From assembly GCF_003269425.1 (NCBI RefSeq), contig NZ_CP030104.1:806001-870000 (forward strand): a DNA stretch of 64,000 nucleotides, given 5' to 3'. A program made the translations under genes and the position numbers. Numbering within the stretch: the first letter of the stretch is position 1; every line of letters begins with the position of its first letter. The notes under the pieces were generated by a model that saw only the letters and a program-made list of their open reading frames with translations, was not told where the DNA came from and made no database searches. Of the stretch, positions 31,647-62,124 are shown in pieces. Source of the stretch: Flagellimonas maritima (GTDB lineage Bacteria; Bacteroidota; Bacteroidia; Flavobacteriales; Flavobacteriaceae).

Positions 31647-31674
31647 TTGTTCCTTGTTCCTTGTTTCTTGTTCG
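31647..31674. repeat. Heptamer tandem repeat, TTGTTCC x4
   Basis: Four consecutive 7-bp units: TTGTTCC, TTGTTCC, TTGTTTC and TTGTTCG. They lie just upstream of the cysteine-synthase-like gene, in the same gap as the repeats at 31743 and 31781. Confidence 0.8.
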
Positions 31675-31742
31675 TTATTTAGAGACATTGTTCGGCATTC
31701 AAAAAGAACTTTTGTTTGAACATTGAGTTTGTAGTTGTATTT

Positions 31743-31760
31743 GGGTCTAGGGTCTAGGGT
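31743..31760. repeat. Heptamer tandem repeat, GGGTCTA x2.6
   Basis: GGGTCTA, GGGTCTA, GGGT. This is a second 7-bp unit, unrelated in sequence to TTGTTCC, in the same intergenic gap. Confidence 0.7.
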
Positions 31761-31780
31761 TTCGGCTAAAAAAGTAAAAT

Positions 31781-31875
31781 TAGAACTTGTGTTTATACCT
31801 TGAACTTGAGCTTATACTTGGATTTTTGAACTTGTATTTGAGTTTAATTTTTGTATTTGAATTTTATGTTTGAAC
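31781..31875. repeat. Degenerate hexamer tandem array, TTGAAC-type
   Basis: About 95 bp made of diverged 6-bp units with occasional one- or two-base slips: TTGTGT, TTATAC, TTGAAC, TTGAGC, TTATAC, TTGGAT, TTGAAC, TTGTAT, TTGAGT and others. It ends eight bases from the stop codon of the permease gene. The same words occur in reverse orientation at 61946-62019. Confidence 0.75.
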
Positions 31876-31883
31876 CTATACCC

Positions 31884-33125
31884 TCACTCAAACTTAATGG
31901 CCTTTACCGGGGTTATTTTAGTAATAATGTACGAAGGCAACAAAAGCATCAACAAACATAAGAGCATTACACCCAGATTTAAAGATAAAATCATTGGAAC
32001 ATCAATGTGCACAGGAATGTATTCGATATAATACTCTTCAGGATTTGGAAATTTGAACAAGCGATATTTATCTTGAAGGTATAACAAACCCAAACCAATA
32101 CCGTTACCCCACAGCAAACCTATAGAGATTAGATAAGCTGCGTTGTACAAAAAAACTTTTCGAATGCTCCAATTTTCACACCCCAATGCTTTTAGAACAC
32201 CTATCATCTGGGTACGTTCCAAAATAAGTACGAGCAATGCCGTAATCATATTGATGCCTCCAACAATAATCATGATACCAATGATAAGTGCAATATTAAA
32301 ATCGAAAAGGCTTATCCATTCGAATATTCTAAAATATTTGGTCTTGATATTTTGCGTATCTAAACTGGAAAGTGTTTTTCCGTAGATTTCATTGCTTTTT
32401 TCTTCCAATTCGTCAAAGTCTTCCAAAAAAACCTCAAAAGTTCCAATTTCATCAGCTTTCCACCTGTTCATACGTTGTAGGTGGCGAATGTCAACAAAAA
32501 CATAGGTAGTATCAAATTCCTCAAAACCACTGTCGTAAATACCAACAATATTGAATTTTCTGGTATTGGGAACTTTAGAAGCGTCCCCATCTTTCAAGAA
32601 AAAAGAAAAAAATGAGTCTCCGACCGTTAATTGCAATCTATCTGCCATGATTCTAGAAACCAAAACCTCATCATTTAGATTTTTCGAATAATCAGGCAAC
32701 CTTCCGTCAATTATAAATTCCTCGAAAACATTCCAATTGTAATCTTGGCCCACACCTTTTGCAAGCATCCCTTCAAACGTATCTTCAGTTCTTATAATCC
32801 CACCTTTGGTAGCAATGGCCTGAACATGTGAAATGCCATCGACATCCTTGAATTTGGGATAAAACTCCTGTTCCAAAGAAACAGGCACTACGGAAACTTC
32901 GGAAGTATTGTTATCGAAATTGGAGATTTGGATATGGCCATTAAAGGCAGCAACCTTTTCACGGATTTTTTGCTTGAGCCCCACACCTGTTGCAATGGCA
33001 ATCAACATCATTACGATACCGATGGCAATTGCTGCTATGGCAATTTTTATTATAGGAGCGGAAATACTAATTTTATGCTCCTTCCCTGTAATCAGGCGTT
33101 TGGCAATAAACAATTCTAAATTCAA
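31884..33125 (-). CDS. ABC transporter permease of the LolC/LolE (MacB/FtsX) type
   Basis: A 413-residue inner-membrane permease related to the lipoprotein-releasing LolCDE system. The N-terminal segment (FIAKRLITGKEHKISISAPI, then IKIAIAAIAIGIVMMLIAIA) is typical. A periplasmic domain of about 210 residues follows, then three C-terminal membrane helices (IALIIGIMIIVGGINMITAL, AAYLISIGLLWGNGIGLGLL, MILSLNLGVMLLCLLMLLLP). FtsX-like blocks such as LERTQMIGVLKALGCENWSIRKVF are clear. No ATPase gene adjoins it. Its start codon is only three bases from that of the divergent NamZ gene, so the promoters of each must lie inside the other gene. Confidence 0.9.
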   Translation of the reverse strand: MNLELFIAKRLITGKEHKISISAPIIKIAIAAIAIGIVMMLIAIATGVGLKQKIREKVAAFNGHIQISNFDNNTSEVSVVPVSLEQEFYPKFKDVDGISHVQAIATKGGIIRTEDTFEGMLAKGVGQDYNWNVFEEFIIDGRLPDYSKNLNDEVLVSRIMADRLQLTVGDSFFSFFLKDGDASKVPNTRKFNIVGIYDSGFEEFDTTYVFVDIRHLQRMNRWKADEIGTFEVFLEDFDELEEKSNEIYGKTLSSLDTQNIKTKYFRIFEWISLFDFNIALIIGIMIIVGGINMITALLVLILERTQMIGVLKALGCENWSIRKVFLYNAAYLISIGLLWGNGIGLGLLYLQDKYRLFKFPNPEEYYIEYIPVHIDVPMILSLNLGVMLLCLLMLLLPSYIITKITPVKAIKFE

Positions 33126-33128
33126 CGA

Positions 33129-34355
33129 ATGTCCGTTTTATCTATTTTCAAAAATACTGCTTTATTGTTGTTTTTACTGTTTTCTTCATGCAGGGGACAG
33201 GAAAAGGAAATTGTGCATACCGCCGACCATAAAGAAAAAGATACTCTATCGGCAATTAAAGTTGCTGCGAATAGAACAACGGAATATCTACCATTACTCA
33301 AAAATAAAAATGTTGGAGTGGTGGCCAATCAGACCAGTGTGATTTTTAAAGAAAATGGATACACCCATTTAGTGGATTCATTGGTTTCCTTGAAGACGAA
33401 TATTGAAAAAGTATTTGCGCCGGAACATGGGTTTCGTGGTAGAGCGGATGCAGGCGAATTGGTCAAAGATGGTGTGGACACCAAAACTGGACTCCCCATT
33501 GTTTCACTTTACGGGAAGAACAAAAAACCTTCCGAAGACCAACTAAAAGGTCTGGACATTATTCTTTTTGATATTCAAGATGTTGGTGTTCGGTTCTATA
33601 CCTATATCGCAACGCTACAACTGGTCATGGAAGCTTGTGCAGAAAATAATGTTCCAATCGTTGTTTTAGATAGGCCTAATCCCAACGGGCATTATGTAGA
33701 CGGCCCTACTATGCAAAAAGAGCATACAAGCTTTTTAGGGATGACCACTATCCCTTTAGTATACGGAATGACTATTGGAGAATATGCGAAAATGATCAAT
33801 TCCGAAAGATGGTTGCGTGAAGAAGTCCGTGCGGACTTGACCATAATCCCACTTGAAAATTATTCCCATCAATCCAAGTACCACATCCCAATTAGACCCT
33901 CGCCAAACCTCCCCAACGATGTTGCCATCAATCTCTATCCAAGTCTAGGCCTTTTTGAAGGTACCAACGTTAATGCAGGAAGGGGAACCGAGTTCCAGTT
34001 TCAACGCTACGGAGCATCATTTTTGGATAGTAATCTATACGATTTTAGCTATGTTCCCAAACCTAATTTTGGTTCCAAAAATCCAAAAGAAGAGGGCGAA
34101 AAGTGTTTTGGAAAAGATTTATCAGGACATGCACAGATGAATACTGTTTCCTTACAATGGTTGATGGATGCATATATCAATGCTTCGGATAAATCAAAGA
34201 TTTTCAAAACTGAATCCTTCACTAAACATGTAGGGACCAATAGTTTGCAGAAACAAATTGAAGCGGGACTCTCAGAATCAGAAATTAAAGCAACCTGGCA
34301 GAAGGATTTGGAGTTTTTTAAAATAATTAGAGAAAAGTACTTAATTTATGATTAA
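33129..34355 (+). CDS. namZ: Exo-beta-N-acetylmuramidase NamZ family (DUF1343, GH171) lipoprotein
   Basis: A 408-residue DUF1343 protein. A characterised member, NamZ, releases N-acetylmuramic acid from the non-reducing end of peptidoglycan fragments and defines family GH171. The signal peptide ends in LFSSC, so it is a lipoprotein. Family blocks are VGVVANQTSVIF, FAPEHGFRGRADAGE, DIILFDIQDVGVRFYTYI, VVLDRPNPNGHYVDGPT, GMTTIPLVYGMTIGEYA, PSPNLPNDVAINLYPSLGLFEGTNVNAGRGT and FGKDLSGH. It points to cell-wall recycling, a theme shared with the VanX/racemase operon 10 kb away. The stop codon overlaps the convergent sterol-desaturase-like gene by four bases. Confidence 0.92.
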   Translation: MSVLSIFKNTALLLFLLFSSCRGQEKEIVHTADHKEKDTLSAIKVAANRTTEYLPLLKNKNVGVVANQTSVIFKENGYTHLVDSLVSLKTNIEKVFAPEHGFRGRADAGELVKDGVDTKTGLPIVSLYGKNKKPSEDQLKGLDIILFDIQDVGVRFYTYIATLQLVMEACAENNVPIVVLDRPNPNGHYVDGPTMQKEHTSFLGMTTIPLVYGMTIGEYAKMINSERWLREEVRADLTIIPLENYSHQSKYHIPIRPSPNLPNDVAINLYPSLGLFEGTNVNAGRGTEFQFQRYGASFLDSNLYDFSYVPKPNFGSKNPKEEGEKCFGKDLSGHAQMNTVSLQWLMDAYINASDKSKIFKTESFTKHVGTNSLQKQIEAGLSESEIKATWQKDLEFFKIIREKYLIYD

Positions 34356-35182
34356 TTGTTTGTAGTGGGTCTTCTATATTTATGGAAAGGCTGCTTTAGC
34401 AAGCCCCATATACTGCTGTTTTCCTTTTCATCGGGGAAAGTATCGACACCGTAAACTATCTTGTCCACATCCATTTTCATGTAAGTACCGAAAAGCCTAT
34501 CCCAAATTGAAAAGATATTACCATAATTGGAATCTGTATAGGGAAGTTGATAATGATGATGCACCTTGTGCATATCGGGGCTTATTATAATCCAACTTAT
34601 GGCGTCATCCAATTTTTTTGGCAATCGAATATTGGCATGATTGAACTGTGAAAGCACTACGGACAGACTTTGGTACAACATAACTATGCCTATTGGCGCC
34701 CCAACAAGAAAAACACCTGTTAAAGTGAAAGCATATCGAATCAAGCTTTCCAGGGGATGATGGCGATTAGCCGTTGTCGTATCTACATTATGGTCGGAAT
34801 GGTGCACCAAATGTACCATCCAAAGCGGCTTTACCTTATGCTCTACAAGGTGTGCCGTATAAGCCCCTATCAAATCCAGAAGCATAACACCGAGAAGCAC
34901 GTACAACCACAAGGGCATTTCTGGCAGCCAATTGATGATTCCGAATTGGTTTTCTACGGACCAATCCGCGGTTTTTAGCAACAAAAATGCTAGTGGAAAA
35001 TTGACGATGATAGTCGTCAACGTAAAGAAGAAGTTAGGAACGGAATGGCGCCATTTTCTGTAATTTACGCTAAATAGAGGTACGATACCTTCCAGTATCC
35101 AGAAGAAAGTGATACCCCCAACTAAAATAAGACTTCTATGTAAAGGGGGAATGCTTTCAAAATACGTAATCAATTGTTCCAT
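34352..35182 (-). CDS. Sterol desaturase/fatty-acid hydroxylase family membrane protein
   Basis: A 276-residue membrane di-iron enzyme of the fatty-acid hydroxylase superfamily. The His-rich metal boxes are HLVEH, VHLVHHSDHNVD, ANRHHPLE, and MHKVHHHYQLPYTDSNYG. Four membrane segments surround them. The substrate is probably a lipid or carotenoid but cannot be read here. The gene is convergent with NamZ with a four-base overlap, and the Fe-S cluster gene lies 21 bp upstream in the same direction. Confidence 0.9.
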   Translation of the reverse strand: MEQLITYFESIPPLHRSLILVGGITFFWILEGIVPLFSVNYRKWRHSVPNFFFTLTTIIVNFPLAFLLLKTADWSVENQFGIINWLPEMPLWLYVLLGVMLLDLIGAYTAHLVEHKVKPLWMVHLVHHSDHNVDTTTANRHHPLESLIRYAFTLTGVFLVGAPIGIVMLYQSLSVVLSQFNHANIRLPKKLDDAISWIIISPDMHKVHHHYQLPYTDSNYGNIFSIWDRLFGTYMKMDVDKIVYGVDTFPDEKENSSIWGLLKQPFHKYRRPTTNN

Positions 35183-35203
35183 AGTACCAAATATAAGAAA
35201 TCA

Positions 35204-35698
35204 TCAAAATTTGATTGTCTTTTTCATTTTCTCAACGATATTGAACGCAGCAGGACAAATAGTAACATTCTTCAAGGTAAGATTTGATATCTGATGAAAC
35301 TTTTTTCGGTCTGTGTGCGGAAATTCCCGACATGCTTTCGGACGCACCGTATAAATGGAACAGTAATTATCAGCTCCCAAAAAAGTACATGGGACTCCTT
35401 TTAGAACATAATCGTTTTCTTCATCTACCCTTAAGAATTTGTCAATAAATTTTGAAGGTTTCATTCTAAAGTACTTGGCTATACGGCCAATATCGGTATT
35501 GGTAAAAAGAGGCCCTGTTGTCTTACAGCAATTGGCACAAGTAAGACAATCTGTTTGTTCAAACTCTTCATTATGAAGATTCTGCATGGTATAATCCAAA
35601 TCTTTTGGAGGCCTTTTTTTAAGCTTCGTAAAAAATCTTCTGTTCTCCGCATGTTTTTCCTCGGCTTTCTTAGGTAACTGTTCAAGACGTTGCTGCAT
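35204..35698 (-). CDS. YkgJ-family cysteine-cluster protein
   Basis: A 164-residue cytoplasmic protein with the Cys pattern of the YkgJ/UPF0153 zinc or iron-sulfur binding family. CLTCANCC occurs at about residue 56, followed by GVPCTFLGADNYCSIYTVRPKACREFP with three more Cys. The N-terminal 45 residues are basic and probably helical. The molecular function is unknown. It lies 21 bp before the sterol-desaturase-like gene on the same strand, so it could help load its metal centre (inference). Confidence 0.85.
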   Translation of the reverse strand: MQQRLEQLPKKAEEKHAENRRFFTKLKKRPPKDLDYTMQNLHNEEFEQTDCLTCANCCKTTGPLFTNTDIGRIAKYFRMKPSKFIDKFLRVDEENDYVLKGVPCTFLGADNYCSIYTVRPKACREFPHTDRKKFHQISNLTLKNVTICPAAFNIVEKMKKTIKF

Positions 35699-35767
35699 AG
35701 TAGGGCAAACTTAAAAAATTGAATTCCATTAAACCATTATATATGATTAAAGTCCCACTTTTGTACC

Positions 35768-36493
35768 ATGTTATTACAGAATATGGAAGATATAATTGGA
35801 AATGCCCTTTTGGACTATCAAGCTGGTAAGCACACAGAAGATATTACAACGTACTCATCTCTTGATGAGGTTGATTCCATTCTCCTGCCCTATCTCTTTC
35901 GCAGCTTTGATGAAATGCCACGATTAGAGCAAAAAGCATTGGAATTGGCAAAAGGAAATGTTCTTGATATTGGCTGTGGTGCTGGAAGTCATACATTATA
36001 TCTTCAAAATAAGGGGTTGAATGTTTCTGCTTTGGATTCATCAAAAGGAGCGATGAAAGTTTGCGAAAAAAGAGGTGTAAAAAAAATGATTCACAGCAAA
36101 ATTCTTGATTTTGAATATTTCAAATTCGATACGCTCTTATTGCTCATGAATGGAATTGGTCTTGCTGGAAAAATTATTGATTTAGGCTATTTTTTAAAGC
36201 ACTTAAAAACTTTATTGAATCCAAACGGTCAAATATTATTGGATTCAAGTGATATTATTTACATGTTCGACAAAGATGAGGATGGAGGGTTTTGGGTTCC
36301 CGATACTGGAAGTTATTATGGGGAGGTAACTTTTACCATGGAATATAAAGGACAGAAAAGTTCACCTTTTGAGTGGCTCTATATTGATTTCAATACGTTA
36401 AAAAAAGTCTGTAAAAGCAATGGTTTTAATTGTGAACTCGTAAGTAAGGGCAAACATTACGACTATTTAGCAAAACTTTCGTTAAGTGTATAA
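35768..36493 (+). CDS. Class I SAM-dependent methyltransferase
   Basis: A 241-residue methyltransferase. The SAM-binding motif I, VLDIGCGAGSHTLYL, is at about residues 64-78, followed by the acidic motif II in VSALDSSKGAMKVC. A later segment, LLLMNGIGLAGKI, occupies the position of the active-site strand. The substrate is unknown. The ATG at 35768 and an in-frame ATG five codons on are both possible starts. Confidence 0.85.
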   Translation: MLLQNMEDIIGNALLDYQAGKHTEDITTYSSLDEVDSILLPYLFRSFDEMPRLEQKALELAKGNVLDIGCGAGSHTLYLQNKGLNVSALDSSKGAMKVCEKRGVKKMIHSKILDFEYFKFDTLLLLMNGIGLAGKIIDLGYFLKHLKTLLNPNGQILLDSSDIIYMFDKDEDGGFWVPDTGSYYGEVTFTMEYKGQKSSPFEWLYIDFNTLKKVCKSNGFNCELVSKGKHYDYLAKLSLSV

Positions 36494-36535
36494 TAGATTT
36501 TACCGCATGTCGTTTTCATTATATATCTTTTCCCT

Positions 36536-37405
36536 ATGAAAAAGAAAACCCTTTTTATAATGATTTTTTGTCTAGGATTCGTGTTTAGCTGTTCTAACGA
36601 TTCCGATGATTCCGAGACAATAACCGTAAGAGTTGATAGGTCAGCAAATCTATTGGCAACGGGAGCCTCCGCCAACGATATTTTATCCAATGCAAATTTT
36701 GATGAACTGCGAATTGAAATAGGTTTTGTTACAGGATTCAGGCCTACCCAAACAGCTATGAACAATTTTGTTGATTTTCTACGGGACAGGACTTTTAAAC
36801 AGGACATTGAAATCATTTACACCGAGTTGCCCTCTCCAAATGAAGAAACTTTGGTATTGGAAGAGATTGCGGATTTGGAGGAAGAAAACAGAACTGCATA
36901 TAATGATGGAAGCACTTTGGCCATTTACATTTATTTTGCCGATGCCCCTTCTGATGGTGACGATTTAGATGAAGGTCTGGTCACTTTGGGCGCTGTATAC
37001 CAGAATACATCTATGATCATCTACGAATCCACTATACGCAATCTTGCCAGCAGAAGTTCTTTGGTAAGTGTTACAGAACTGGAAACGGCCACTTTAAATC
37101 ATGAGTTTGGACATCTGTTTGGATTGGTGAACTTGGGAACTGATGCCATTAATGACCATGAAGATCCAGAAGCTGATAATCATTGCATAGTGGATGGTTG
37201 CCTCATGCGGGCACAATTGCAATTTGGTGCTACGGCAAGAACACAAAATTTAACCGGGAAAGCTTCGACTATTCGATCTGCGTGTAATCTAAACGGAAAT
37301 TCGGTACTTAAAATACTGGAAAGTAATGTTTCTAGAGGATTCGCTGCGGTGCCGTTACTTGATGCTGAATGTCTTCTAGATCTTGAGAGTAACGGAGGTC
37401 GTTAG
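36536..37405 (+). CDS. Lipoprotein metalloprotease-like protein
   Basis: A 289-residue exported lipoprotein with signal peptide ending LGFVFSC. The zinc motif HEFGHLFGLVNLG has the metzincin form HExxHxxGxxN, followed by a downstream Met-containing segment (CIVDGCLMRAQ) that may supply the Met-turn. An acidic stretch (DSDDSETI) follows the lipobox, and three Cys in the C-terminal part may form disulfides. Similar proteins in Flavobacteria are annotated as membrane metalloproteases. The substrate is unknown. Confidence 0.8.
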   Translation: MKKKTLFIMIFCLGFVFSCSNDSDDSETITVRVDRSANLLATGASANDILSNANFDELRIEIGFVTGFRPTQTAMNNFVDFLRDRTFKQDIEIIYTELPSPNEETLVLEEIADLEEENRTAYNDGSTLAIYIYFADAPSDGDDLDEGLVTLGAVYQNTSMIIYESTIRNLASRSSLVSVTELETATLNHEFGHLFGLVNLGTDAINDHEDPEADNHCIVDGCLMRAQLQFGATARTQNLTGKASTIRSACNLNGNSVLKILESNVSRGFAAVPLLDAECLLDLESNGGR

Positions 37406-37414
37406 TAACACCTG

Positions 37415-38047
37415 TTAAGGTATATTTAAATATTTGTGGGTCTGTAAGGATACTTTCCATTTTGGATTCTTCATGACATAGTCTACGATTTCTGGAACCA
37501 TTTTATCACGAACACTCCATTCTGGCTGTAAATATAAAATACAATCTTCGCTTACTTGTGCGGCTTGCTCTTCAGCAAAAATAAAATCATGTTTGTTATA
37601 AACAATGATTTTAAGTTCGTTTGCCAAGGCATAAATTTTGTTCTTGGGAAGTTTGTTCTTTTTTGGTGAGAGACATATCCAATCCCATTTGCCCGTTAGT
37701 GGATAGGCCCCTGAAGTTTCGATATGAATCTGTAGGTTTTTGTTCTTTAGTCCAGAGGTCAAGGGACCCATATCCCAAGTAAGGGGTTCTCCACCAGTTA
37801 TTACTATGATATTCGAATATTTTGAGGCATTATCAATTATACGCTCTATTGCGGTGGGTGGATGCGTCTCAGCATTCCAGCTTTCTTTTACATCGCACCA
37901 ATGACAGCCAACATCACAACCTCCAACTCTAATAAAATAAGCAGCAGTACCTTTGTGGTATCCCTCTCCCTGAATGGTATAGAATTCTTCCATTAGTGGA
38001 AGCATTAATCCCTTACCGACCAAATCCATGACCTTTTCTGAAACCAT
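37415..38047 (-). CDS. queE: 7-carboxy-7-deazaguanine synthase QueE
   Basis: A 210-residue radical-SAM enzyme of queuosine and 7-deazaguanine biosynthesis that converts 6-carboxytetrahydropterin to 7-carboxy-7-deazaguanine. The cluster motif is GGCDVGCHWCDVKESW (Cys-x3-Cys-x2-Cys). The N-terminal FYTIQGEGYHKGTAAYFIR and the segment VITGGEPLTWD are diagnostic, with WICLSPKKNKLP further on. The gene is convergent with the metalloprotease-like lipoprotein with a nine-base gap. Other queuosine genes are not in the window. Confidence 0.94.
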   Translation of the reverse strand: MVSEKVMDLVGKGLMLPLMEEFYTIQGEGYHKGTAAYFIRVGGCDVGCHWCDVKESWNAETHPPTAIERIIDNASKYSNIIVITGGEPLTWDMGPLTSGLKNKNLQIHIETSGAYPLTGKWDWICLSPKKNKLPKNKIYALANELKIIVYNKHDFIFAEEQAAQVSEDCILYLQPEWSVRDKMVPEIVDYVMKNPKWKVSLQTHKYLNIP

Positions 38048-40729: not shown

Positions 40730-40742
40730 CTTTTTTAATTTA

Positions 40743-45900: not shown

Positions 45901-46785
45901 TTATTTCTTCATTCTATGGCGCTCACGTGCCAATAAGGTGTTTTTTAACAGCATGGCTATGGTCATAGGGCCTACGCCTCCAGGTACCGGTGTTATGTAA
46001 GATGCTTTTTTACTGACGTTTTCAAAATCCACATCTCCAGTTATATAATATCCCCTTTCGCGCGAATCGTCTGGAACACGTGTTATCCCTACATCAATTA
46101 TTACGGCATCATCCTTTACCATCTCGGCCTTTAAAAATTTGGGAACTCCCAGTGCAGAAATTACGATATCTGCCTGTGATATAATCTGAGTAATATTTTT
46201 GGTATGGCTATGTGTAAGCGTTACCGTAGAGTTACCGGGCCATCCTTTACGCCCCATTAAAATACTCATTGGCCTCCCTACAATATGGCTGCGACCGATT
46301 ACTACGGTATGTTTTCCTTTGGTATCGACATTATAGCGTTCCAAAAGTTCCAATATTCCAAATGGGGTTGCGGGAATGAACGTACTCATATCCAGTGCCA
46401 TTTTGCCAAAATTGGTTGGATGAAAACCATCAACATCCTTATCAGGATGAATAGCCATAATCACTTCTTGGGTATCGATTTGCTCCGGAAGTGGTAATTG
46501 TACTATGAATCCGTCAATATTTGTATCCTCATTAAGTTCCTCGATTTTTTTGAGCAGTTCCTGCTCGGAAGTCGTACTTGGCAAACGGATTAAGGTAGAT
46601 TCAAAACCCACACGTTCGCATGAACGCACCTTACTGCCCACGTAAGTTAAACTTGCGCCATCGTTACCAACAATAACTGCTGCTAAATGGGGAACCTTTT
46701 CTCCCTTTTCCTTCATTTTTGCCACCTCTGCCGCAATTTCATTTTTTATGTCGTTGGATACTTTTTTTCCGTCTAGGATTTCCAT
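45901..46785 (-). CDS. folD: Bifunctional methylenetetrahydrofolate dehydrogenase/cyclohydrolase FolD
   Basis: A 294-residue FolD, which interconverts 5,10-methylene-THF and 10-formyl-THF with NADP in the one-carbon pool. Motifs are VGNDGASLTYVGSKVRSCERVG with the catalytic Lys, GFIVQLPLPEQID, KDVDGFHPTNFG, the nucleotide-binding GRSHIVGRPMSILM, and TPVPGGVGPMTIAMLLKNT. It is complete and of usual length. It lies downstream of ffh across a gap filled by a heptamer repeat array. Confidence 0.97.
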   Translation of the reverse strand: MEILDGKKVSNDIKNEIAAEVAKMKEKGEKVPHLAAVIVGNDGASLTYVGSKVRSCERVGFESTLIRLPSTTSEQELLKKIEELNEDTNIDGFIVQLPLPEQIDTQEVIMAIHPDKDVDGFHPTNFGKMALDMSTFIPATPFGILELLERYNVDTKGKHTVVIGRSHIVGRPMSILMGRKGWPGNSTVTLTHSHTKNITQIISQADIVISALGVPKFLKAEMVKDDAVIIDVGITRVPDDSRERGYYITGDVDFENVSKKASYITPVPGGVGPMTIAMLLKNTLLARERHRMKK

Positions 46786-46820
46786 TTGGATGGTTTATTT
46801 AAGTAACGAATTATAAACTA

Positions 46821-46920
46821 CTGATTACTGACTACTGACTACTGACTACTGACTACTGACTACTGACTACTGACTACTGACTACTGACTACTGACTACTG
46901 ACTACTGACTACTGACTACT
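46821..46920. repeat. Heptamer tandem array, CTGACTA x14
   Basis: Fourteen 7-bp units from 46821 to 46918. The first is CTGATTA and the next thirteen are exact CTGACTA, followed by CT. The array ends nine bases from the ffh stop codon and occupies most of the ffh-folD gap. On the ffh strand the unit reads TAGTCAG. Because 7 is not a multiple of 3, it places a TAG in every reading frame. Confidence 0.97.
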
Positions 46921-46928: not shown

Positions 46929-48257
46929 TTAACGCATGTTCTGCATCATCTGCATCATTTTCTTGCTACCACCACCTTGCATCATTTTCATCATTTTGCT
47001 CATTTGTTCAAACTGTTTTAATAACTGGTTCACTTCTTGTACAGTTCGCCCACTGCCCATGGCAATTCGTTTTTTCCTACTTGCATTTAACTTGGCTGGT
47101 GTAGAACGTTCATCAGGGGTCATAGAATGTATTATGGCTTCAATATGTTTGAAAGCATCATCATCAATATCCAATCCTTTCATGGCTTTTCCTGCACCAG
47201 GAATCATACCCATTAAGTCCTTCATATTGCCCATCTTCTTGATTTGCTGTATCTGGCTCAAGAAGTCATCGAATCCAAATTTATTTTTAGCAATTTTCTT
47301 TTGAATTTTTCGAGCTTGTTCTTCATCAAATTGTTCTTGTGCACGCTCGACCAAAGACACAACATCTCCCATTCCCAATATCCTATCCGCCATTCTTGAA
47401 GGATAGAAGACATCTATAGCCTCCATCTTTTCTCCAGTACCAATGAACTTGATAGGTTTGTCCACTACGGATTTTATGGAAATAGCAGCACCGCCCCTAG
47501 TATCACCATCTAATTTCGTCAAGATAACGCCGTCAAAATTTAAGATGTCATTGAAGGCTTTAGCAGTATTAACGGCATCTTGTCCTGTCATGGAATCAAC
47601 TACAAACAAGGTTTCTTGGGGAGTTATAGCTTTATGAATGTTGGCAATTTCGTTCATCATTTGTTCATCTACTGCCAAACGACCTGCCGTATCAATGATT
47701 ACTACGTTGCATCCTATTGTCTTTGCATATGCAATACCTGACTTTGCAATTGAAACGGGATCATTGTTTTCTCTATCTGAGAAAACCTCAACACCAATTT
47801 GTTCGCCTACTACATGCAATTGATCAATTGCTGCAGGGCGATAGACATCGCAAGCGACCAAAAGTGGTTTTTTGCTTTTTTTATTATTTAGATAGTTGGC
47901 CAATTTTCCTGAAAAGGTGGTTTTACCGGAACCTTGCAAGCCAGACATTAGAATTACGGAAGGGTTCCCCGTAAGATCAATTTCCTCTGCTTCTCCGCCC
48001 ATTAACTCGGTCAACTCATCTTTTACAATTTTGACCATAAGTTGGCCAGGCTGTAAATTTGTAAGTACGTTTTGACCAAGTGCTTTTTCTTTAACACGAT
48101 TGGTAAATTCCTTTGCTATCTTAAAGTTGACATCGGCATCCAAAAGGGCTCTTCGAACTTCTTTAAGAGTTTCCGCTACATTGATCTCCGTTATTTGTCC
48201 ATGCCCCTTTAGGACGTGGAGTGCTTTGTCCAGCTTATCGCTTAAATTATCGAACAT
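46929..48257 (-). CDS. ffh: Signal recognition particle protein Ffh (SRP54)
   Basis: A 442-residue SRP GTPase that binds SRP RNA and signal sequences and delivers ribosomes to the membrane. The N domain begins MFDNLSDKLDKALHVLKGHG. The G domain has the P-loop GLQGSGKTTFSGKLA, DVYRPAAIDQL, IIDTAGRLA and TKLDGDTRGGAA. The Met-rich M domain ends MSKMMKMMQGGGSKKMMQMM. The gene is complete and of normal length. A heptamer repeat array begins nine bases beyond its stop codon. Confidence 0.98.
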   Translation of the reverse strand: MFDNLSDKLDKALHVLKGHGQITEINVAETLKEVRRALLDADVNFKIAKEFTNRVKEKALGQNVLTNLQPGQLMVKIVKDELTELMGGEAEEIDLTGNPSVILMSGLQGSGKTTFSGKLANYLNNKKSKKPLLVACDVYRPAAIDQLHVVGEQIGVEVFSDRENNDPVSIAKSGIAYAKTIGCNVVIIDTAGRLAVDEQMMNEIANIHKAITPQETLFVVDSMTGQDAVNTAKAFNDILNFDGVILTKLDGDTRGGAAISIKSVVDKPIKFIGTGEKMEAIDVFYPSRMADRILGMGDVVSLVERAQEQFDEEQARKIQKKIAKNKFGFDDFLSQIQQIKKMGNMKDLMGMIPGAGKAMKGLDIDDDAFKHIEAIIHSMTPDERSTPAKLNASRKKRIAMGSGRTVQEVNQLLKQFEQMSKMMKMMQGGGSKKMMQMMQNMR

Positions 48258-50526: not shown

Positions 50527-50564
50527 GGAGTTAGGAGTTAGGAGTTAGGAGTTAGGAGTTAGGA
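50527..50564. repeat. Heptamer tandem array, GGAGTTA x5
   Basis: Five exact GGAGTTA units at 50527-50561 and a partial GGA, beginning one base after the TAA stop codon of the sigma-factor gene. On the coding strand it places TAG in all three frames. About 200 bp of otherwise featureless AT-rich sequence follow before FecR. Confidence 0.95.
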
Positions 50565-50763
50565 ATATTCAAAATCTTGATATCTTTCAACCTAAAAATA
50601 TAATTATTTATCTATCAATGATTTGTATAAATTTCCATTTACATGTTCCAAGGAAATCCAGTAAATTGAAACTATCTTTAAATTCTTTGTTGAGAACAAC
50701 GAACAACTATAAAGTAGGGTTTTTTATAGTAGTGTTGTTATTAATATGTAAAGCATAGCACCC

Positions 50764-55184: not shown

Positions 55185-55208
55185 ATTAAACAAAATCAAA
55201 AAAATAGC

Positions 55209-55946: not shown

Positions 55947-55994
55947 AAATATCGATCAATAATAACCTTTCTTGTCCGTTTTAGTTGGTCAAGA

Positions 55995-56135: not shown

Positions 56136-57912
56136 ACATTCTTTCTGGCACAGCAATTCCCAAAAGCTTAAATGAAGACCGAATTACTTCTCCCACTTTT
56201 TTGGCCAGTTGTACCCTGAATAGTTTTTTATTGGCATCAACTTCCCCTAAAATGGATACTTGCTGGTAGAAAGAGTTGAACTCCTTGACCAAATCATAGG
56301 TATAATTGGCAATCAGTGCAGGACTGTAATTCTCGGCGGCCAATTGTATCGTTTCGGGAAAAACTTGAAAAAGTTTTAAAAGTTCCTTTTCCTTTTGGTG
56401 CAAAGCAAAATTGATGTCCAACGGTGCTGAGACATTAAAATCAGCTTTTCTTAGAATGGATTGTATCCTCGCATAGGTATATTGAATAAATGGACCCGTG
56501 TTCCCTTGAAAATCAACGGACTCTTCTGGATTAAAAAGAATTCGCTTCTTAGGGTCCACCTTAAGAATATAATATTTTAAGGCCCCTAAACCAATGGTTT
56601 TGTACAATTCTTCTTTTTCTAGTATCGAATAACCCTCCAGTTTTCCCAGTTCTTCAGAAATTTCTTTGGCGGTCAAGGTCATTTTATCAATAAGGTCATC
56701 GGCATCAACAACAGTACCTTCCCTACTTTTCATTTTGCCGCTTGGCAAATCTACCATGCCATAGCTTAAATGATAAAGCTGTTTGGCCCAATCATACCCT
56801 AGCTTTTTAAGAATCAGAAACAAAACTTTAAAATGATAGTCCTGTTCATTTCCAACAGTGTACACCATTCCATTAATATCGGGGAAATCGGTCACCCTTT
56901 GGATTGCTGTACCTATATCTTGTGTCATATAGACAGCAGTTCCATCAGATCGCAATACAATTTTTTCATCCAGACCTTCATCCGTCAAGTCTATCCAAAC
57001 ACTTCCGTCCTCTTTTTTAAAGAATACACCCTTTTCAAGTCCATCTTTAACAACGTCCCTTCCCAAAAGATAGGTGTCACTTTCATAATAAAGTGTATCA
57101 AAATCAACGCCAAGGTTTTTATAAGTGGTATCAAACCCTTTGTAGACCCAACCGTTCATTCTTTTCCAAAGCACAACGACATCAGTATCACCAGCCTCCC
57201 ACTTACGAAGCATTTTTTGGGCTTCCAACAAAATGGGCGCTTCTTTTTCAGCACGCTCTTTCTCAAGCCCTTCTGAAACCAACTTGCCAATTTGCTCCTT
57301 ATAGACCTTATCAAATTCTATATAATATTTGCCTACCAAGTGGTCTCCCTTTACTCCTGATGAATCTGGAGTCTCGCCTTTACCGAATTTCTGCCATGCC
57401 AACATACTTTTACAAATATGGATGCCACGGTCATTGATTATTTGTGTTTTATAGACTTTCTTGCCTGAAGCTTTTAGGATTTCCGCAACCGAATACCCCA
57501 AAAGATTATTACGAATATGGCCCAAATGTAAAGGCTTATTGGTGTTAGGTGAAGAATATTCTACCATAACGGCATCATCAGATGCATTTTTTAAATAGCC
57601 ATAATCTTTCTCTTCAAAGATTGAATTAAAGAATTTCAGGTAGAAACTATCATCTATAACAATATTCAAAAAACCCTTGACTACGTTGAATTTGGATACT
57701 TCATCAACATGTTTTTGAAGATGATCCCCGATTTTGGTTCCTATTTCGACAGGATTACCTTTAACAGTGCGCAACATGGGAAAAATAACTATTGTAATAT
57801 CCCCCTCAAAATCCTTGCGCGTAGGTTGAAATTCCACCAAAGGCAAACTCTTACCGTACAATTTGGAAACCGCTTCAATAACATTTTGGGACAATACTTT
57901 TTGTAAACTCAT
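56134..57912 (-). CDS. argS: Arginyl-tRNA synthetase
   Basis: A 592-residue class I aminoacyl-tRNA synthetase that charges tRNA-Arg. The N-terminal additional domain begins MSLQKVLSQNVIEAVSKLYG, which supports the start at 57912. An ATG eight codons upstream is possible. The catalytic HIGH-type motif is HLGHIRNNLLG, preceded by VEYSSPNTNKPLHLGH. A KMSK-like segment, KMKSREGTVVDADDL, is present. The C-terminal DALR domain ends FKLLGIAVPERM. Its stop codon lies inside the right arm of the inverted-repeat element. Confidence 0.97.
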   Translation of the reverse strand: MSLQKVLSQNVIEAVSKLYGKSLPLVEFQPTRKDFEGDITIVIFPMLRTVKGNPVEIGTKIGDHLQKHVDEVSKFNVVKGFLNIVIDDSFYLKFFNSIFEEKDYGYLKNASDDAVMVEYSSPNTNKPLHLGHIRNNLLGYSVAEILKASGKKVYKTQIINDRGIHICKSMLAWQKFGKGETPDSSGVKGDHLVGKYYIEFDKVYKEQIGKLVSEGLEKERAEKEAPILLEAQKMLRKWEAGDTDVVVLWKRMNGWVYKGFDTTYKNLGVDFDTLYYESDTYLLGRDVVKDGLEKGVFFKKEDGSVWIDLTDEGLDEKIVLRSDGTAVYMTQDIGTAIQRVTDFPDINGMVYTVGNEQDYHFKVLFLILKKLGYDWAKQLYHLSYGMVDLPSGKMKSREGTVVDADDLIDKMTLTAKEISEELGKLEGYSILEKEELYKTIGLGALKYYILKVDPKKRILFNPEESVDFQGNTGPFIQYTYARIQSILRKADFNVSAPLDINFALHQKEKELLKLFQVFPETIQLAAENYSPALIANYTYDLVKEFNSFYQQVSILGEVDANKKLFRVQLAKKVGEVIRSSFKLLGIAVPERM

Positions 57913-57959
57913 GTAGAAAGCCTTTTCAGGCTGCAAAACTACACTTTTTTTGTGCTTTT

Positions 57960-58442
57960 ATGATAAGATTATTATCCTTTGCCCCTTTGATCAGACTGCT
58001 TTTGTTAATTTTAGGAATGCTTTTAAATGTCTCGTACAATAACAGGAAAATTACAAAGAAAATTGATGAAGCCGTTGGCAAACCGTTTACCCTAAAAGAG
58101 CGTTTCGCACTGAAAGGGATAGGTTCCCCAAAACTTTTTATTACTGAGGCCAGTGTAGAAATCCAGAATCTATTGATTTTGGACAACAACCTGAACGTAT
58201 GCAATATTGAAATGCGTCCTAAAGGTATCGTGGTACGATTTAGGTCCCTGTTGGAAACATTTGGCTTAATAATCCCCTATTACAAACTCACTATTTACAA
58301 AGGCGATTTAGCAATCTACTCTATATATCGCGATCATTATTTTATAAAAGTAAAGTCCGATACCAAGGCCATACAAAAGTATTTTAGAAAACTATTGGAC
58401 TATAAAGCTGACAATGCGCCCACATCAATAGAAGACCTATGA
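57960..58442 (+). CDS. Hypothetical protein upstream of the epimerase-like gene
   Basis: A 160-residue protein of no family I can name. It has an N-terminal hydrophobic helix (FAPLIRLLLLILGMLLNVSY) and then a basic, mixed alpha/beta part (KPFTLKERFALKGIGSPKLF, LDNNLNVCNIEMRPKGIVVRF, ETFGLIIPYYKLTIYKGDLA). It overlaps the next gene by four bases (ATGA), so the two are translationally coupled and probably share a function at the membrane. It diverges from argS. Confidence 0.75.
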   Translation: MIRLLSFAPLIRLLLLILGMLLNVSYNNRKITKKIDEAVGKPFTLKERFALKGIGSPKLFITEASVEIQNLLILDNNLNVCNIEMRPKGIVVRFRSLLETFGLIIPYYKLTIYKGDLAIYSIYRDHYFIKVKSDTKAIQKYFRKLLDYKADNAPTSIEDL

Positions 58443-59863
58443 AAATTCTATTGACTGGAGCCAATGGTTATATAGGAATGCGTCTTTTGCCAAGATTGCT
58501 GGAACTAGGGCACGAAGTAGTTTGTGCCGTAAGGGATGAAAAACGGTTGTCCGTTGATAAAGAAACCCGTAAAAGAATCCAGGTGGTGGAAATTGATTTT
58601 CTGGAAGAGTTGGATAAAACAAAGATTCCAAAAGATATCGATGCTGCATACTATCTGATTCATTCCATGGCTTCGTCTATTGATGATTTTGATGAAAAAG
58701 AGGCTATAACCGCCAAAACTTTTAATGAATATGTCTTTGAGACCAATATTGAGCAGGTCATTTATTTGAGTGGTATTGTAAATGACAAAAAACTCTCCAG
58801 ACACTTAAGTTCCAGAAAGAACGTAGAGGATATTTTATACAAAGGAAATTTTAATTTGACCGTTCTTAGGGCAGGTATCATCGTAGGTTCTGGTAGCTCC
58901 TCTTTTGAGATTATTCGTGATCTGTGTGAGAAACTTCCTTTTATGATAACGCCAAAGTGGGTTTTGACAAAATCCCAACCCATTGCCATACGGGACGTCA
59001 TCAATTTTCTAACGGATGTACTTGGCAACAAAAAAACCTACGGGGAATCTTTTGATATTGGTGGGCCAGATGTGCTTACCTACAAAGAAATGTTGCATAG
59101 GTACGCCAAGGTAAGAGGTTTTAAAAACTGGATTTTTACCGTTCCCATAATGACGCCCAAACTATCTTCTTATTGGCTATATTTTGTAACGTCAACATCC
59201 TATAAATTAGCCGTAAACCTGGTTGATAGTATGAAGATGGAGGTGGTTGCAAAGGATAACAAATTACAGAAGTTATTGGGATTGAAAACCCACTCGTATG
59301 AACAGGCTATCGAAATGGCATTCAAAAAAATTGAGCAGAACCTGGTTCTTAGCAGTTGGAAAGATAGTATAGCAAGTGGAAGAATCAGTGATGATTTGGA
59401 AAAATACATTCAAGTGCCAAAATACGGGGTGCTGAAAGATGTAAAAAAAATGCCCATCAAAAATGAAGAAGAAGTTTTGAACAATATTTGGCGTATAGGT
59501 GGTTCGCAAGGGTGGTATTATGGCGATTGGCTCTGGAAAATTCGAGGTTTTTTGGATAAGCTGAACGGGGGTCCGGGCTTAAGGCGCGGACGTACCAATC
59601 CTGATAAAATTTTTCCTGGGGATGCCCTTGATTTTTGGCGTGTATTGCTTGCCGATAAGAAAGCAAAACGCTTACTGCTTTTTGCTGAAATGCGAATGCC
59701 TGGAGAAGCATGGCTAGAGTTTAAAATAGACGATAAAAATGTTCTTCACCAAGTAGCAACCTTTAGGCCAAAAGGACTTAGGGGCAGGCTCTATTGGTAC
59801 AGCGTATTGCCTTTTCATTATTTTATTTTTGGAGGAATGATCAGAAATCTTTCCAAAACATAA
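58439..59863 (+). CDS. NAD(P)-binding SDR-like protein with DUF2867 C-terminus
   Basis: A 474-residue protein. Residues 1-290 are an atypical short-chain dehydrogenase/NmrA-like Rossmann domain. It opens with LLTGANGYIGMRLLPRL (GxxGxxG) and continues with VVCAVRDEKRL, AAYYLIHSMASS, EQVIYLSGIV, LTVLRAGIIVGSGS and SFDIGGPDVLTYKEML. Residues about 330-474 are a DUF2867 domain (EVLNNIWRIGGSQGWYYGDW, GGPGLRRGRTNP, DFWRVLLADKKAKRLLL, FRPKGLRGRLYWY). This two-domain form is common in Flavobacteria. The substrate is unknown. It is coupled to the upstream membrane protein. Confidence 0.9.
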   Translation: MKILLTGANGYIGMRLLPRLLELGHEVVCAVRDEKRLSVDKETRKRIQVVEIDFLEELDKTKIPKDIDAAYYLIHSMASSIDDFDEKEAITAKTFNEYVFETNIEQVIYLSGIVNDKKLSRHLSSRKNVEDILYKGNFNLTVLRAGIIVGSGSSSFEIIRDLCEKLPFMITPKWVLTKSQPIAIRDVINFLTDVLGNKKTYGESFDIGGPDVLTYKEMLHRYAKVRGFKNWIFTVPIMTPKLSSYWLYFVTSTSYKLAVNLVDSMKMEVVAKDNKLQKLLGLKTHSYEQAIEMAFKKIEQNLVLSSWKDSIASGRISDDLEKYIQVPKYGVLKDVKKMPIKNEEEVLNNIWRIGGSQGWYYGDWLWKIRGFLDKLNGGPGLRRGRTNPDKIFPGDALDFWRVLLADKKAKRLLLFAEMRMPGEAWLEFKIDDKNVLHQVATFRPKGLRGRLYWYSVLPFHYFIFGGMIRNLSKT

Positions 59864-59980
59864 CGTTCCGGTCCAAATTTTGAAACAAATTCCCCAATAT
59901 ATCGTCAAATCTTAAAGTTGAAAGCAACCCTTCTACGCAAAATACTGTCTTTCCAATATAAGTTATAGAAAATTTACACT

Positions 59981-61468
59981 ATGCAGTTACTCAAACCTAC
60001 CGTATCATCCCTATTCGTTATGCTATTTTGCCAGTGTCTATCCGCACAGACAATAGCATCCAAAATAATTGATGGCAAGACCAAAGAGCCCATTCCATAC
60101 GCCACCGTTCAATACGGTGAGAACCTAGGTGTCATCACGAACGAAGAAGGACGTTTTAGTTTTGAGTTGGAAGAATCCGTACAGTATTTGGATTCTATCT
60201 ATATCTCAAGTATAGGATATGCCAAAACTGGATTCCCGTTTCAAAAGTCATTGGACAGTATTATATCAATTACCCCTAAAGCCATTGAACTGAGCGGTGT
60301 ATATCTTTTTGACAAAGAGCTCAGCGTTGATGACATTATGGAAAGAGTAGAAGAACGTCTTCCCATTAATTACAATAAAGCACCGATAAAACAGCGGTTT
60401 TTTCTACGGCAGTCCACTTTCAATACCATGCAGAAGCTCAACATTGAGTTCAAAAAATCCACCATAGAAGAATTGAACAAAAAATTGATAGACAGCATTA
60501 TCTCAATCCTTCCCAGAAATGCGCAGTATTATACTGAAACACTAGGCGATTTTTACCGCTCTGAAGAATTGAACAAACTTGAAGTCATCAAGGCGGCCGA
60601 GCTTTATGACAAAAGCAATGAAGGTTCCATGGAGGCACTTTCAGATAAAATGGAAGCCATTTTTAAGGCCAACGTAAAACCTGACTCATACTTAAAAATA
60701 AAATCAGGCATATTTGGGCAAAAAGTACAAGTGGATTCCATTTTGGATGCAGAAGATGAGGCTTCAGAATTGGAAGCAGAATTAAAAGAACCTGAAAAGA
60801 CCGATTTTTTAGGAAATAGGAAGTATGTACTAAATCAAATCCATAATCAATTCTTCGGAAAGAAATCCAAATTGGATGTAGCAAAAAAATTAAATCGTTA
60901 TGATTTTGAGCTTCTGGGATATTCAGAATTGGAAAACCAAGGAGTTTATGTAATCGGCTACGAACCTTCGCGGCGTGCAGATTTCAGGGGCAAACTTTTT
61001 GTGAACATAGAGGATTTTGCAATCATGCGCATAGACTACGAAAATGTAAAATCCTTAAAAAGTATTAAACTACTGGGGTTCAGTTACCAAGAACATACCT
61101 ATAAGGGCACTACCGTTTTTTCCAAATTTGGCAAAGATAAATATGTGCCCAAGTTTATGGCATTGACCTTTGGACGTAAAATGGGTGTGGACCGACCTTT
61201 AAAAGTGATTGAAAAGAATAAACATGTCAAGGGGCGAAGAAAACAAAACGAACTGTCCCTTGCCTTGGATATTATCAATTATAACACTGAAAAATTTGAA
61301 ATGGTGGTTTTTGATTCTGATGTGGTCCCAAAATCCAGTTTGGAAAACCTGGAAGAAGATGAAACCGTAAAAGCAATTTATCTATCGGCCTACAATCCAG
61401 AATTTTGGAAGGGCTATACTATAATGGAACCCAACCAAGCGATACGGGAGTTTACTGTGGTTGAGTAG
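59981..61468 (+). CDS. Exported protein with carboxypeptidase-regulatory-like domain
   Basis: A 495-residue protein with a signal peptide (ending CQCLSAQ). A carboxypeptidase-like regulatory domain follows at about residues 25-110 (ASKIIDGKTKEPIPYATVQY, GVITNEEGRFSFEL, SSIGYAKTGFPF). The rest resembles the non-barrel part of larger Bacteroidota outer-membrane proteins: QRFFLRQSTFNTMQKLNIEF, a Glu-rich segment (DAEDEASELEAELKEPE), NQGVYVIGYEPSRRADFRGK and FVNIEDFAIMRIDYE. No TonB barrel is present. The role is unknown. The last 17 bases overlap an XRE regulator remnant on the other strand. Confidence 0.8.
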   Translation: MQLLKPTVSSLFVMLFCQCLSAQTIASKIIDGKTKEPIPYATVQYGENLGVITNEEGRFSFELEESVQYLDSIYISSIGYAKTGFPFQKSLDSIISITPKAIELSGVYLFDKELSVDDIMERVEERLPINYNKAPIKQRFFLRQSTFNTMQKLNIEFKKSTIEELNKKLIDSIISILPRNAQYYTETLGDFYRSEELNKLEVIKAAELYDKSNEGSMEALSDKMEAIFKANVKPDSYLKIKSGIFGQKVQVDSILDAEDEASELEAELKEPEKTDFLGNRKYVLNQIHNQFFGKKSKLDVAKKLNRYDFELLGYSELENQGVYVIGYEPSRRADFRGKLFVNIEDFAIMRIDYENVKSLKSIKLLGFSYQEHTYKGTTVFSKFGKDKYVPKFMALTFGRKMGVDRPLKVIEKNKHVKGRRKQNELSLALDIINYNTEKFEMVVFDSDVVPKSSLENLEEDETVKAIYLSAYNPEFWKGYTIMEPNQAIREFTVVE

Positions 61469-61710
61469 ATTTAAGACTACAGATTTCTGAAAGCGGAACC
61501 TCCAAAGCTTGGCTGATACGGAACAAGGTATGAACAGTTGCATTGGTACGACCTTTTTCTATTCTGGAAATATTTGTTGTATCAATTCTCGCTTCAATTC
61601 TGTCCACCAAATCCACTTGTGCAAGCCCTTTCTTTAAGCGAATACAGTTGATATTTTACCAATTTTCTCTAAACCATTCTTTTTTAACTTGTCATATATG
61701 ACATTTAATA
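61452..61710 (-). pseudogene. XRE-family HTH regulator remnant with one frameshift
   Basis: A first frame from about 61710 reads VIYDKLKKNGLEKIGK with no start codon. After a frameshift near 61646-61660 a second frame reads RLKKGLAQVDLVDRIEARID, TNISRIEKGRTNATVHTLFR and ISQALEVPLSEIC before the stop at 61452. The helix-turn-helix pattern of a small Cro/C1-type regulator is complete apart from the frameshift and the missing start. Its 3' end overlaps the preceding plus-strand gene. Confidence 0.65.
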
Positions 61711-61751
61711 ACTGCTAAAAATAAGCTTCCTTGCTTATAAAATGAGCAAGC

Positions 61752-61937
61752 GTGACCAACGATAAAGTTTTAATACAATGGATTGAAGACACCTATGGAA
61801 TTCCTGAAGAATTAGCAAAAGTGTTGGATTATGGTATTGAAATGCTGTTTTATCTGAAGCCTGATTCATTTGAGCCTAAAGAAGTACAAGAAGTGGTTTC
61901 GGCTATGAGGGGGTTGATAATTGGGTTAAGAAGCTGA
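61752..61937 (+). CDS. Small hypothetical protein, 61 residues
   Basis: A GTG at 61752 opens a 61-codon frame (MTNDKVLIQWIEDTYGIPEE, LAKVLDYGIEMLFYLKPDSF, EPKEVQEVVSAMRGLIIGLR). The product is acidic, probably helical, and has no membrane segment. It is divergent from the XRE remnant, so the two may once have formed a regulator/partner pair. No ATG start is available in frame. A hexamer repeat array starts about nine bases after its stop codon. Confidence 0.5.
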   Translation: MTNDKVLIQWIEDTYGIPEELAKVLDYGIEMLFYLKPDSFEPKEVQEVVSAMRGLIIGLRS

Positions 61938-61945
61938 AGTCAGGA

Positions 61946-62019
61946 CTCAAGTTCAAAGACAAAAATCAAGGTTCAAGTTCAAGCTCAAAAAATAAGTGCA
62001 AGCTCAAGTATAAGTTCAA
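61946..62019. repeat. Degenerate hexamer tandem array, GTTCAA-type
   Basis: About 74 bp of diverged 6-bp units: GTTCAA, GTTCAA, GCTCAA, GTGCAA, GCTCAA, GTATAA and GTTCAA, with one-base slips. These are the reverse complements of the TTGAAC, TTGAGC and TTATAC words at 31781-31875. The array begins about nine bases after the stop codon of the 61-residue protein gene. Confidence 0.75.
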
Positions 62020-62033
62020 CTGCATTTCGTCAC

Positions 62034-62124
62034 CTGTCAACCGTCAGCCATTATCCGTTATGAGGCAACTGTCATCGGTCATTTGTCAACCGTCATCAAT
62101 CATCAGTCAACTGTCATCAGTCAA
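62034..62124. repeat. Diverged heptamer tandem array, CNGTCAW x13
   Basis: Thirteen consecutive 7-bp units in perfect register: CTGTCAA, CCGTCAG, CCATTAT, CCGTTAT, GAGGCAA, CTGTCAT, CGGTCAT, TTGTCAA, CCGTCAT, CAATCAT, CAGTCAA, CTGTCAT and CAGTCAA. The array ends six bases from the stop codon of the citrulline hydrolase gene. It is more diverged than the arrays at 46821 and 50527, so it is presumably older. Confidence 0.88.

Follow-up and report, generated by a model that had tools for sequence, protein, structure and literature searches.

Intervening sequences within the 23S rRNA of Coxiella, Leptospira and other bacteria are the described systems closest to the repeats reported here, with a likeness, as parts of PMC4990558 set it out, in the S23/IVP family of proteins, in a stem (excised in those systems) and, for Coxiella, in tandem heptamers. 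The Coxiella element is reported to carry the heptamer GACAGAT in two or three copies, varying between strains, ahead of the S23p start and to be excised by RNase III, and an S23p of Xanthomonas was solved as a pentameric ring (sections of PMC4990558). Intergenic heptamers are likewise described, in the sections used here, from Cyanobacteria and Xanthomonas (PMC4692102) and, as TAACTGA repeats, from marine Beggiatoaceae (PMC4679880), and a heptamer excess for which slippage was proposed is reported for many prokaryotes (Mrazek 2007 as described in parts of PMC4679880). We have analyzed a window of 64,000 nucleotides of Flagellimonas maritima (positions 806,001–870,000 of a 3.77-Mb one-contig genome whose Ffh is 91–94% identical to Allomuricauda/Flagellimonas members among the matches listed), in which four gaps between genes bear tandem arrays with units of 7 or 6 bp. 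We conclude that these arrays are probably the arms, whole or remnant, of intervening-sequence elements of the 23S type located in operons. A complete element would consist of an array, a gene of the S23/IVP family (four-helix bundle, PF05635/TIGR02436) and a reverse-complement array, all inserted in sense where two co-directional genes meet.

Such a layout is seen around the S23/IVP genes themselves. PF05635 has 14 matches in the genome studied here, none of which lies in the window; most are located between co-directional genes, and most are flanked by heptamer arrays in reverse complement whose unit differs from locus to locus. The PF05635 listing held 142 matches (14 from this genome), of which 90 loci were fetched (83 for the arm test and seven later) and 52 left out. 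Seven of the 83 were dropped as unparsed (L095, L146, L152, L156, L167, L172, L186), leaving 76 from this genome and its relatives, among them L142, which was kept although it appears to be miscalled (its open reading frame, ORF, is not IVP-like). Seventy-four of the 76 genes are co-directional with both neighbors. Local alignment of the upstream arm with the reverse complement of the downstream arm gave a score of 12.22 for arms of one locus and of 7.55 for arms of different loci (z 21.6; 0 of 10,000 permutations), an effect far larger than that in direct orientation (8.11 versus 7.37; z 5.2; 0 of 10,000). In the two arms, autocorrelation is highest at lag 7 (0.438 and 0.443); it is 0.38 and 0.40 at lag 14, 0.32–0.34 at lags 1 and 8, and about 0.26–0.31 at the remaining lags. 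The predicted RNA duplex of the two arms is more stable than that of mismatched arms (−29.8 versus −16.0 kcal/mol; 81 loci, 0 of 5000), and in 63 of 76 elements the minimum-free-energy fold contains at least eight arm–arm pairs, a count made without a shuffled control.

Complementarity of the arms outlasts their divergence. At one orthologous IVP site present in 10 genomes, the inverted match was 14.05 within and 8.98 across genomes (0 of 2000), and the direct match 8.25 and 7.22 (24 of 2000); the inverted match is thus kept while the arms differ among the genomes, which amounts to covariation. Of four further sites, two smaller ones show the same pattern (14 and 21 of 2000); the other two have no same-genome excess (860 and 1045 of 2000) because cross-genome scores are equally high there (10.67 and 13.82), the arms being alike. 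Arm words and IVP similarity are correlated to a small degree (Mantel r 0.109, 1 of 2000, 41 sites), an effect limited to pairs with an IVP similarity of at least 0.5; L020 and L060 were excluded from this comparison and from the period tree, and for L017 and L067 the downstream arm is wrong in it because the ORF is interrupted. Related IVPs at different sites have resembling arm words, as seen for L192 and the ffh site and for L145 of Bacteroidota and cyanobacterial L216. A fixed core with variable bases in each heptad (CAGTNNN) was considered and found unsupported: the matches had been selected by the same pattern, and the null of the phase-clustering test was biased, shuffled arms also falling below it. 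Two gene gaps, S1 and S5, harbor IVPs of different subfamilies in different genomes and look as if they had been recolonized. An 832-bp gap of the genome studied here (L122, genome positions 1706253–1707084) contains similar heptamer-rich stretches that repeat at a longer spacing.

A census of tandem repeats shows that the arrays exceed chance. The sample comprised the window and 40 further 20-kb stretches (41 stretches, 864 kb; 91,565 bp intergenic), with genes called by a codon-usage script, so that starts and short genes are approximate; perfect tandem runs of at least 18 bp and at least 2.5 copies were compared with dinucleotide shuffles. Intergenic DNA contained 22 runs of period 7 (0.15 in shuffles) and three of period 6 (0.05), the remaining periods between 2 and 24 being without runs; the two period-7 runs in coding DNA correspond to chance level (1.33 expected). 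Since a threshold of 2.5 copies penalizes long periods, intergenic runs were recounted with equal run length across all periods, which gave 22 for period 7, three for period 6, five for period 14 (a multiple of 7), two for period 15 and one each for periods 10, 17 and 19 (shuffles 0 to 1.0 each). For shorter runs, coding DNA shows a mild excess at period 6 and not at 7 (9 versus 2.0 at 16 bp), which in-frame repeats would be expected to produce. The unit changes from array to array, and together with the period-7 excess this demonstrates a single favored period with free sequence. The first-pass annotation of the window, which was made from its letters, had described a constant unit length with changing sequence, and the finding strongly bears this out; over the 864-kb sample, the scan for an excess at 6–7 bp that it had proposed reveals one, with few runs of other periods.

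Gap type proved informative. Co-directional gaps of the 864-kb sample contained 21 arrays in 50.0 kb, divergent gaps none in 22.7 kb and convergent gaps one in 14.4 kb; the corresponding numbers at the loci of 80 relatives, a set centered on ffh that includes the ffh-folD gap by design, were 23 in 54.8 kb, one in 19.4 kb and one in 9.2 kb. Four data sets pooled, drawn from related genomes that are not independent of one another, gave 47 co-directional, six divergent and two convergent arrays. Of these 47 co-directional arrays, nine are at most 10 bp away from the upstream stop codon (4.2 expected; 81 of 5000 simulations reach nine) and four at most 10 bp away from the following start (4.2 expected here too). 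Closeness to stop codons, emphasized in the first-pass annotation, is thus mildly non-random and the proposed clustering weakly supported; in the 864-kb sample gap type weighs more than stop distance. The arrays also have a polarity. Those on the stop side are G-rich on the gene strand (21 with more G than C, six with more C than G) and those on the start side C-rich (two and nine; Fisher p 0.001), which matches the polarity of IVP arms.

Within the window, the array between ffh and folD is the clearest candidate for the remnant of an IVP element. This TAGTCAG array (ACTACTG ×14.9, about 15 copies; 46817..46920, minus strand) begins 8 bp past the stop of its upstream neighbor ffh (SRP54; 46929..48257, minus strand) and precedes a folD-like gene (tetrahydrofolate dehydrogenase/cyclohydrolase; 45901..46785, minus strand). 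In the orthologous gaps of the 80 relatives, differing heptamers follow the ffh stop (TAAGCAG, TAGTCAG, TACTTGA, GTTAAGA), and tblastn detected an S23/IVP gene, intact or broken, in 10 of them, including four without an ORF of 90–170 codons (L017, L020, L060, L067). Among 28 readable congeners, two (G006 and G020) have an IVP gene flanked by CAGT-type arms, six carry an array of at least two copies (2 to about 10, with two further congeners slightly below two), and 20 have neither, their gaps including short ones with one CAGAAGT word and one with an unrelated gene. Seven of eight ffh-folD proteins form one clade of the IVP tree together with L192, which is located at a different site and whose arms also bear CAGT words; the eighth, from Nonlabens, belongs to another subfamily. 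L050 and L067, both from the ffh-folD gap, have hexameric CAGTCT arms, and the downstream arm of L050 also contains ACTG words six bases apart.

Four other gaps in the 864-kb sample resemble ffh-folD in that they lack an IVP gene here and possess one in a congener. The mean best lag-7 score of the five is 0.864, which none of 20,000 random sets of five gaps reached. Individually they are ranked 8, 8, 9, 14 and 17 (the number of gaps with an equal or higher score) among the 174 co-directional gaps of at least 100 bp in the sample, the five included. Bare arrays are therefore tied to IVP sites. IVP content and arrays are also associated across genomes. Period-7 arrays were absent from the intergenic DNA of the IVP-free samples G022 (0 in 38.6 kb, from a 324-kb sample), G036 (0 in 10.6 kb) and G034 (0 in 19.7 kb), as against 22 in 91.2 kb (the genome studied here), eight in 23.7 kb (G017) and two in 28.7 kb (G005). 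IVP counts correlate with whole-genome counts of heptad patterns (Spearman 0.69, p 1e-6, 39 genomes; 0.89 for 15 genomes of other families); these counts include overlapping matches, a single long array counting many times, and the sum that was used includes reversed control patterns, which are themselves heptad arrays.

Repeat period clusters by IVP lineage as judged from the protein tree, being 7 normally and 6 in the FxxEDR clade, with exceptions. The FxxEDR subfamily comprises seven congeneric loci at one site, including that of the genome studied here, whose arms have period 6 (0.434 and 0.549 at lag 6; 0.303 and 0.373 at lag 7), as opposed to the other 75 IVP elements (0.44 at lag 7; 0.29 at lag 6). 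Period 6 is also found in L405–L408, related IVPs of a second genus that occupy a different site. Of 110 elements, 78 were called period 7, 13 period 6 and 19 received no call; mapped on the tree, the labels require four changes versus 11.4–11.5 when shuffled, and none of 500 shuffles was as low. That some mechanism sets the period, as the first-pass annotation had supposed, agrees with this clustering by the lineage of the S23/IVP protein.

Layout, orientation, complementarity of arms that survives turnover, the association of IVP lineage with both period and arm words, and the shared occupancy of gaps, all of them features of sequence, thus point to elements that would act at the RNA level. 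A transcript of both host genes would traverse the element, and the arms would form a stem whose loop contains the IVP gene, as in the intervening sequence of 23S rRNA. Cleavage of this stem by RNase III or a similar double-strand enzyme would leave the operon little affected by the insertion. A ring of IVP would bind the arms, perhaps with one repeat per protomer, which could explain why the period is kept and the sequence free. Ring proteins such as TRAP offer an analogy for a protein ring that reads repeats. The closest sequence match of IVP with a structure is PDB 2gsc (XCC0516), which has five chains. After loss of the IVP gene an array could persist and then lengthen by slippage. Taken further, and quite tentatively, bacterial operons may host a class of elements whose S23/IVP ring reads the arms repeat by repeat and fixes the unit at 7 nt in most cases and 6 nt in FxxEDR, the arms drifting in concert, and many unexplained heptamer arrays of Bacteroidota and Cyanobacteria may be their footprints. 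If the arrays are arms of such elements, two puzzles kept apart until now, bacterial heptamer arrays and what the widespread S23/IVP proteins do, would become one testable object: an intervening element in protein-coding operons would explain the favored period of 7 and why arrays of fixed strand polarity are located at gene borders, and it would provide a candidate ligand for the S23 protein.

Several observations weigh against this interpretation. An inverted partner is absent from gaps with an array and no ORF (14 gaps, z −0.6); the weak inverted signal of array-free co-directional (221 gaps, z 5.2) and convergent gaps (44 gaps, z 3.1), which is 0.5 in 93 divergent gaps, may come from ordinary terminators. 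G022, which has no IVP match, possesses an ffh-folD array of 6.4 copies and 11 heptad-pattern matches, so that arrays are possible without a resident IVP, and G005 has no arrays between called genes. Within the genus, the correlation of IVP and heptad-pattern counts is not significant (rho 0.31, p 0.14). All eight arrays of G017 fall in two neighboring gaps of one stretch, five in a divergent and three in a co-directional one; arrays thus cluster and are not independent. As regards period, L409 from a third genus has period 6, unlike its closest relatives in the tree (period 7), and further exceptions are the hexamers of L050 and L067 at the ffh site, L411 (which is broken and was called period 7, though it belongs to the FxxEDR clade) and the 19 elements without a call. 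At ffh-folD, local duplication of a word that the empty gap already contains could account for the (CAGAAGT)n series seen in congeners. No IVP was found in the sigma–FecR or FtsX–PALP gaps of readable congeners, and the sigma–FecR, FtsX–PALP and DDAH gaps described below would be assigned to IVP elements by resemblance alone, namely in period, polarity and word family.

Some of these findings would fit slippage alone, that is, a replication or repair process which duplicates 7-mers in weakly constrained DNA, with IVP genes merely occupying similar gaps. The heptamer excess reported for many prokaryotes, the resemblance of the ffh-folD series to growth from a single CAGAAGT word, the arrays of IVP-free G022 and those in the divergent gap of G017 all fit such a process. 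However, slippage predicts neither reverse-complement arms around IVP genes nor the G/C polarity, neither the clustering of periods by IVP lineage nor the lack of arrays in the divergent gaps of the 864-kb sample (none in 22.7 kb versus 21 in 50.0 kb of co-directional gaps), and we consider it an improbable explanation of the arrays. It is much less probable still that the arms are signals for mRNA processing or termination which the host keeps to separate co-transcribed genes, with IVP genes as passengers. The preference for co-directional gaps, the polarity and the stem pairing would suit such signals, yet most orthologous gaps of congeners are array-free, and with 20 of 28 ffh-folD gaps lacking both array and IVP no conserved need is visible. 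Protection of mRNA 3′ ends had been put forward in the first-pass annotation; a role at these ends is possible, and the predicted arm–arm pairing suggests processing over simple protection. Scars of a repair process, likewise named there, found no sign in their favor, no test having been aimed at them. A further suggestion of that annotation, out-of-frame stop safety nets behind genes, draws on the facts that many units include a stop word and that a period of 7 runs through all frames. Left arms of IVP elements contain hardly more stop words than shuffled ones, however (8.32 versus 7.87 per 100 nt), and the AGTCAGA arrays of several congeners are stop-free in every frame, which makes safety nets exceedingly unlikely.

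Besides ffh-folD, three gaps of the window hold arrays. Tandem Repeats Finder recovered the arrays of all four gaps, some of them degenerate. The FtsX–PALP gap contains TTGTTCC ×3.9 (31647..31673, plus strand) on the side of the start codon, at a distance of 12 or 32 bp according to which start is chosen, GGGTCTA ×2.6 (31743..31760, plus strand) in its middle, and degenerate hexamer words (TTCAAG/CTCAAG on the gene strand; 31800..31875, minus strand) that end about 8 bp from the FtsX stop and, by eye, share their word family with the left arm of this genome's own FxxEDR-type IVP element. GGAGTTA ×5.4 (50527..50564, plus strand) lies 1 bp past the stop of a gene for a sigma-70-family factor, likely of the ECF type, in the sigma–FecR gap. 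In the DDAH gap, degenerate AAGTTC/AAGCTC hexamers (61946..62019, plus strand; degenerate 6- and 18-mer rows of Tandem Repeats Finder at 61966–62019) begin about 8 bp past the stop of a short ORF (61752–61937), and degenerate heptamers (TGAC plus three variable bases on the gene strand; 62030..62127, minus strand; 7-, 14- and 21-mer rows at 62066–62127) lie about 3 bp past the DDAH stop. By eye, the GTTCAA/TTGAAC words of congeneric FxxEDR arms are the hexamer words of the window at 31.8 and 61.9 kb. The first-pass annotation had placed an array 1–9 bp from a stop codon in every gap; each gap does have one within about 10 bp (8, 1, 3 and about 8 bp), and the start-side TTGTTCC and mid-gap GGGTCTA arrays do not follow this pattern. 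An Rfam scan of the window matched no RNA family.

These gaps were compared in 30 genomes including the one studied here, some of them interrupted by contig ends. On the array side of the sigma–FecR gap, GGAGTTA is replaced by CAGTAGG and GATAACT in G040, GGCAGTA and AACTGAT in G020, CAGTGAG and TTGATTG in G015, and CTTGAAC in G001 and G005; the remaining orthologues have gene-free degenerate arms or a short gap of 61–88 bp. As at ffh-folD, the comparison of orthologous gaps advised in the first-pass annotation thus yields array sequences that differ among relatives. In 12 other genomes FtsX is followed by PALP, the gaps measuring 21–104 bp and none containing an array of 2.5 copies, and elsewhere a different gene comes after FtsX. 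The DDAH neighborhood is not conserved among the genomes compared. In most readable congeners a conserved block, GTAGGGTTTTTT ... GTAAAGCATAGAA (50690–50763 of the window, and orthologues), precedes the FecR gene and is perhaps its promoter.

Outside Bacteroidota, plasmids revealed the same arrangement. From 32 plasmid records with an S23 match 15 were fetched, and the first 12 entered the arm test. Most of these 12 cyanobacterial S23 genes share the order of array, gene and inverted array, with an inverted match of 20.38 versus 8.85 (0 of 10,000) and a direct match of 12.29 versus 7.18 (143 of 10,000), so that the cyanobacterial connection drawn in the first-pass annotation extends to the heptamer-arm layout. 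Eight of the 12 are co-directional with both neighbors, three lie antisense between two genes that run the opposite way, and one has a neighbor of each direction. In three cyanobacterial plasmids (L207, L208, L215) the S23/IVP gene is found inside CRISPR-cas operons, twice between cas6 and cas4 and once between cas10 and a Cmr3-family gene. A Gemmatirosa IVP also has inverted heptamers by eye. On plasmid AZO_p2 of Azospirillum lipoferum, an S23/IVP gene (L419) interrupts a plasmid-borne 23S rRNA (Rfam LSU, 1119 bits) and is flanked, by eye, by inverted heptamer arms on both sides; this gene has no annotation in the gene table.

Other described repeat systems were compared as well. No unit of the window equals TAACTGA or its complement in any rotation, the direct repeats of Beggiatoaceae being located upstream of start codons (MacGregor 2015). 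As far as their main texts go, PMC4692102 and PMC4679880 contain neither 'S23' nor 'four helix', and the repeats in them are not linked to S23/IVP genes; a search of open-licence literature, which is no proof of absence, found no paper that joins S23/IVP genes with heptamer arms in operons. As regards phase-variation repeats, in which copy number in a coding sequence or promoter switches a surface gene, coding period-7 runs of at least 18 bp are at chance here, and the neighbors of the window arrays are ffh, folD, the sigma factor gene and the genes for FecR, PALP, FtsX and DDAH. Avd of diversity-generating retroelements has weak profile similarity (E 7e-8, 32.7 bits, below the cut-off of 80). 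Measured against the 23S rRNA intervening sequence, finally, inverted stem arms are present in IVP elements and absent from array gaps without an ORF, and an S23/IVP ORF in the loop, of which the window has none, is present at ffh-folD of G006 and G020. Instead of lying inside a 23S rRNA gene, the window arrays and the 76 Bacteroidota loci are situated between protein genes, with up to 14 family matches per genome, and at some of these sites the arrays alone remain.

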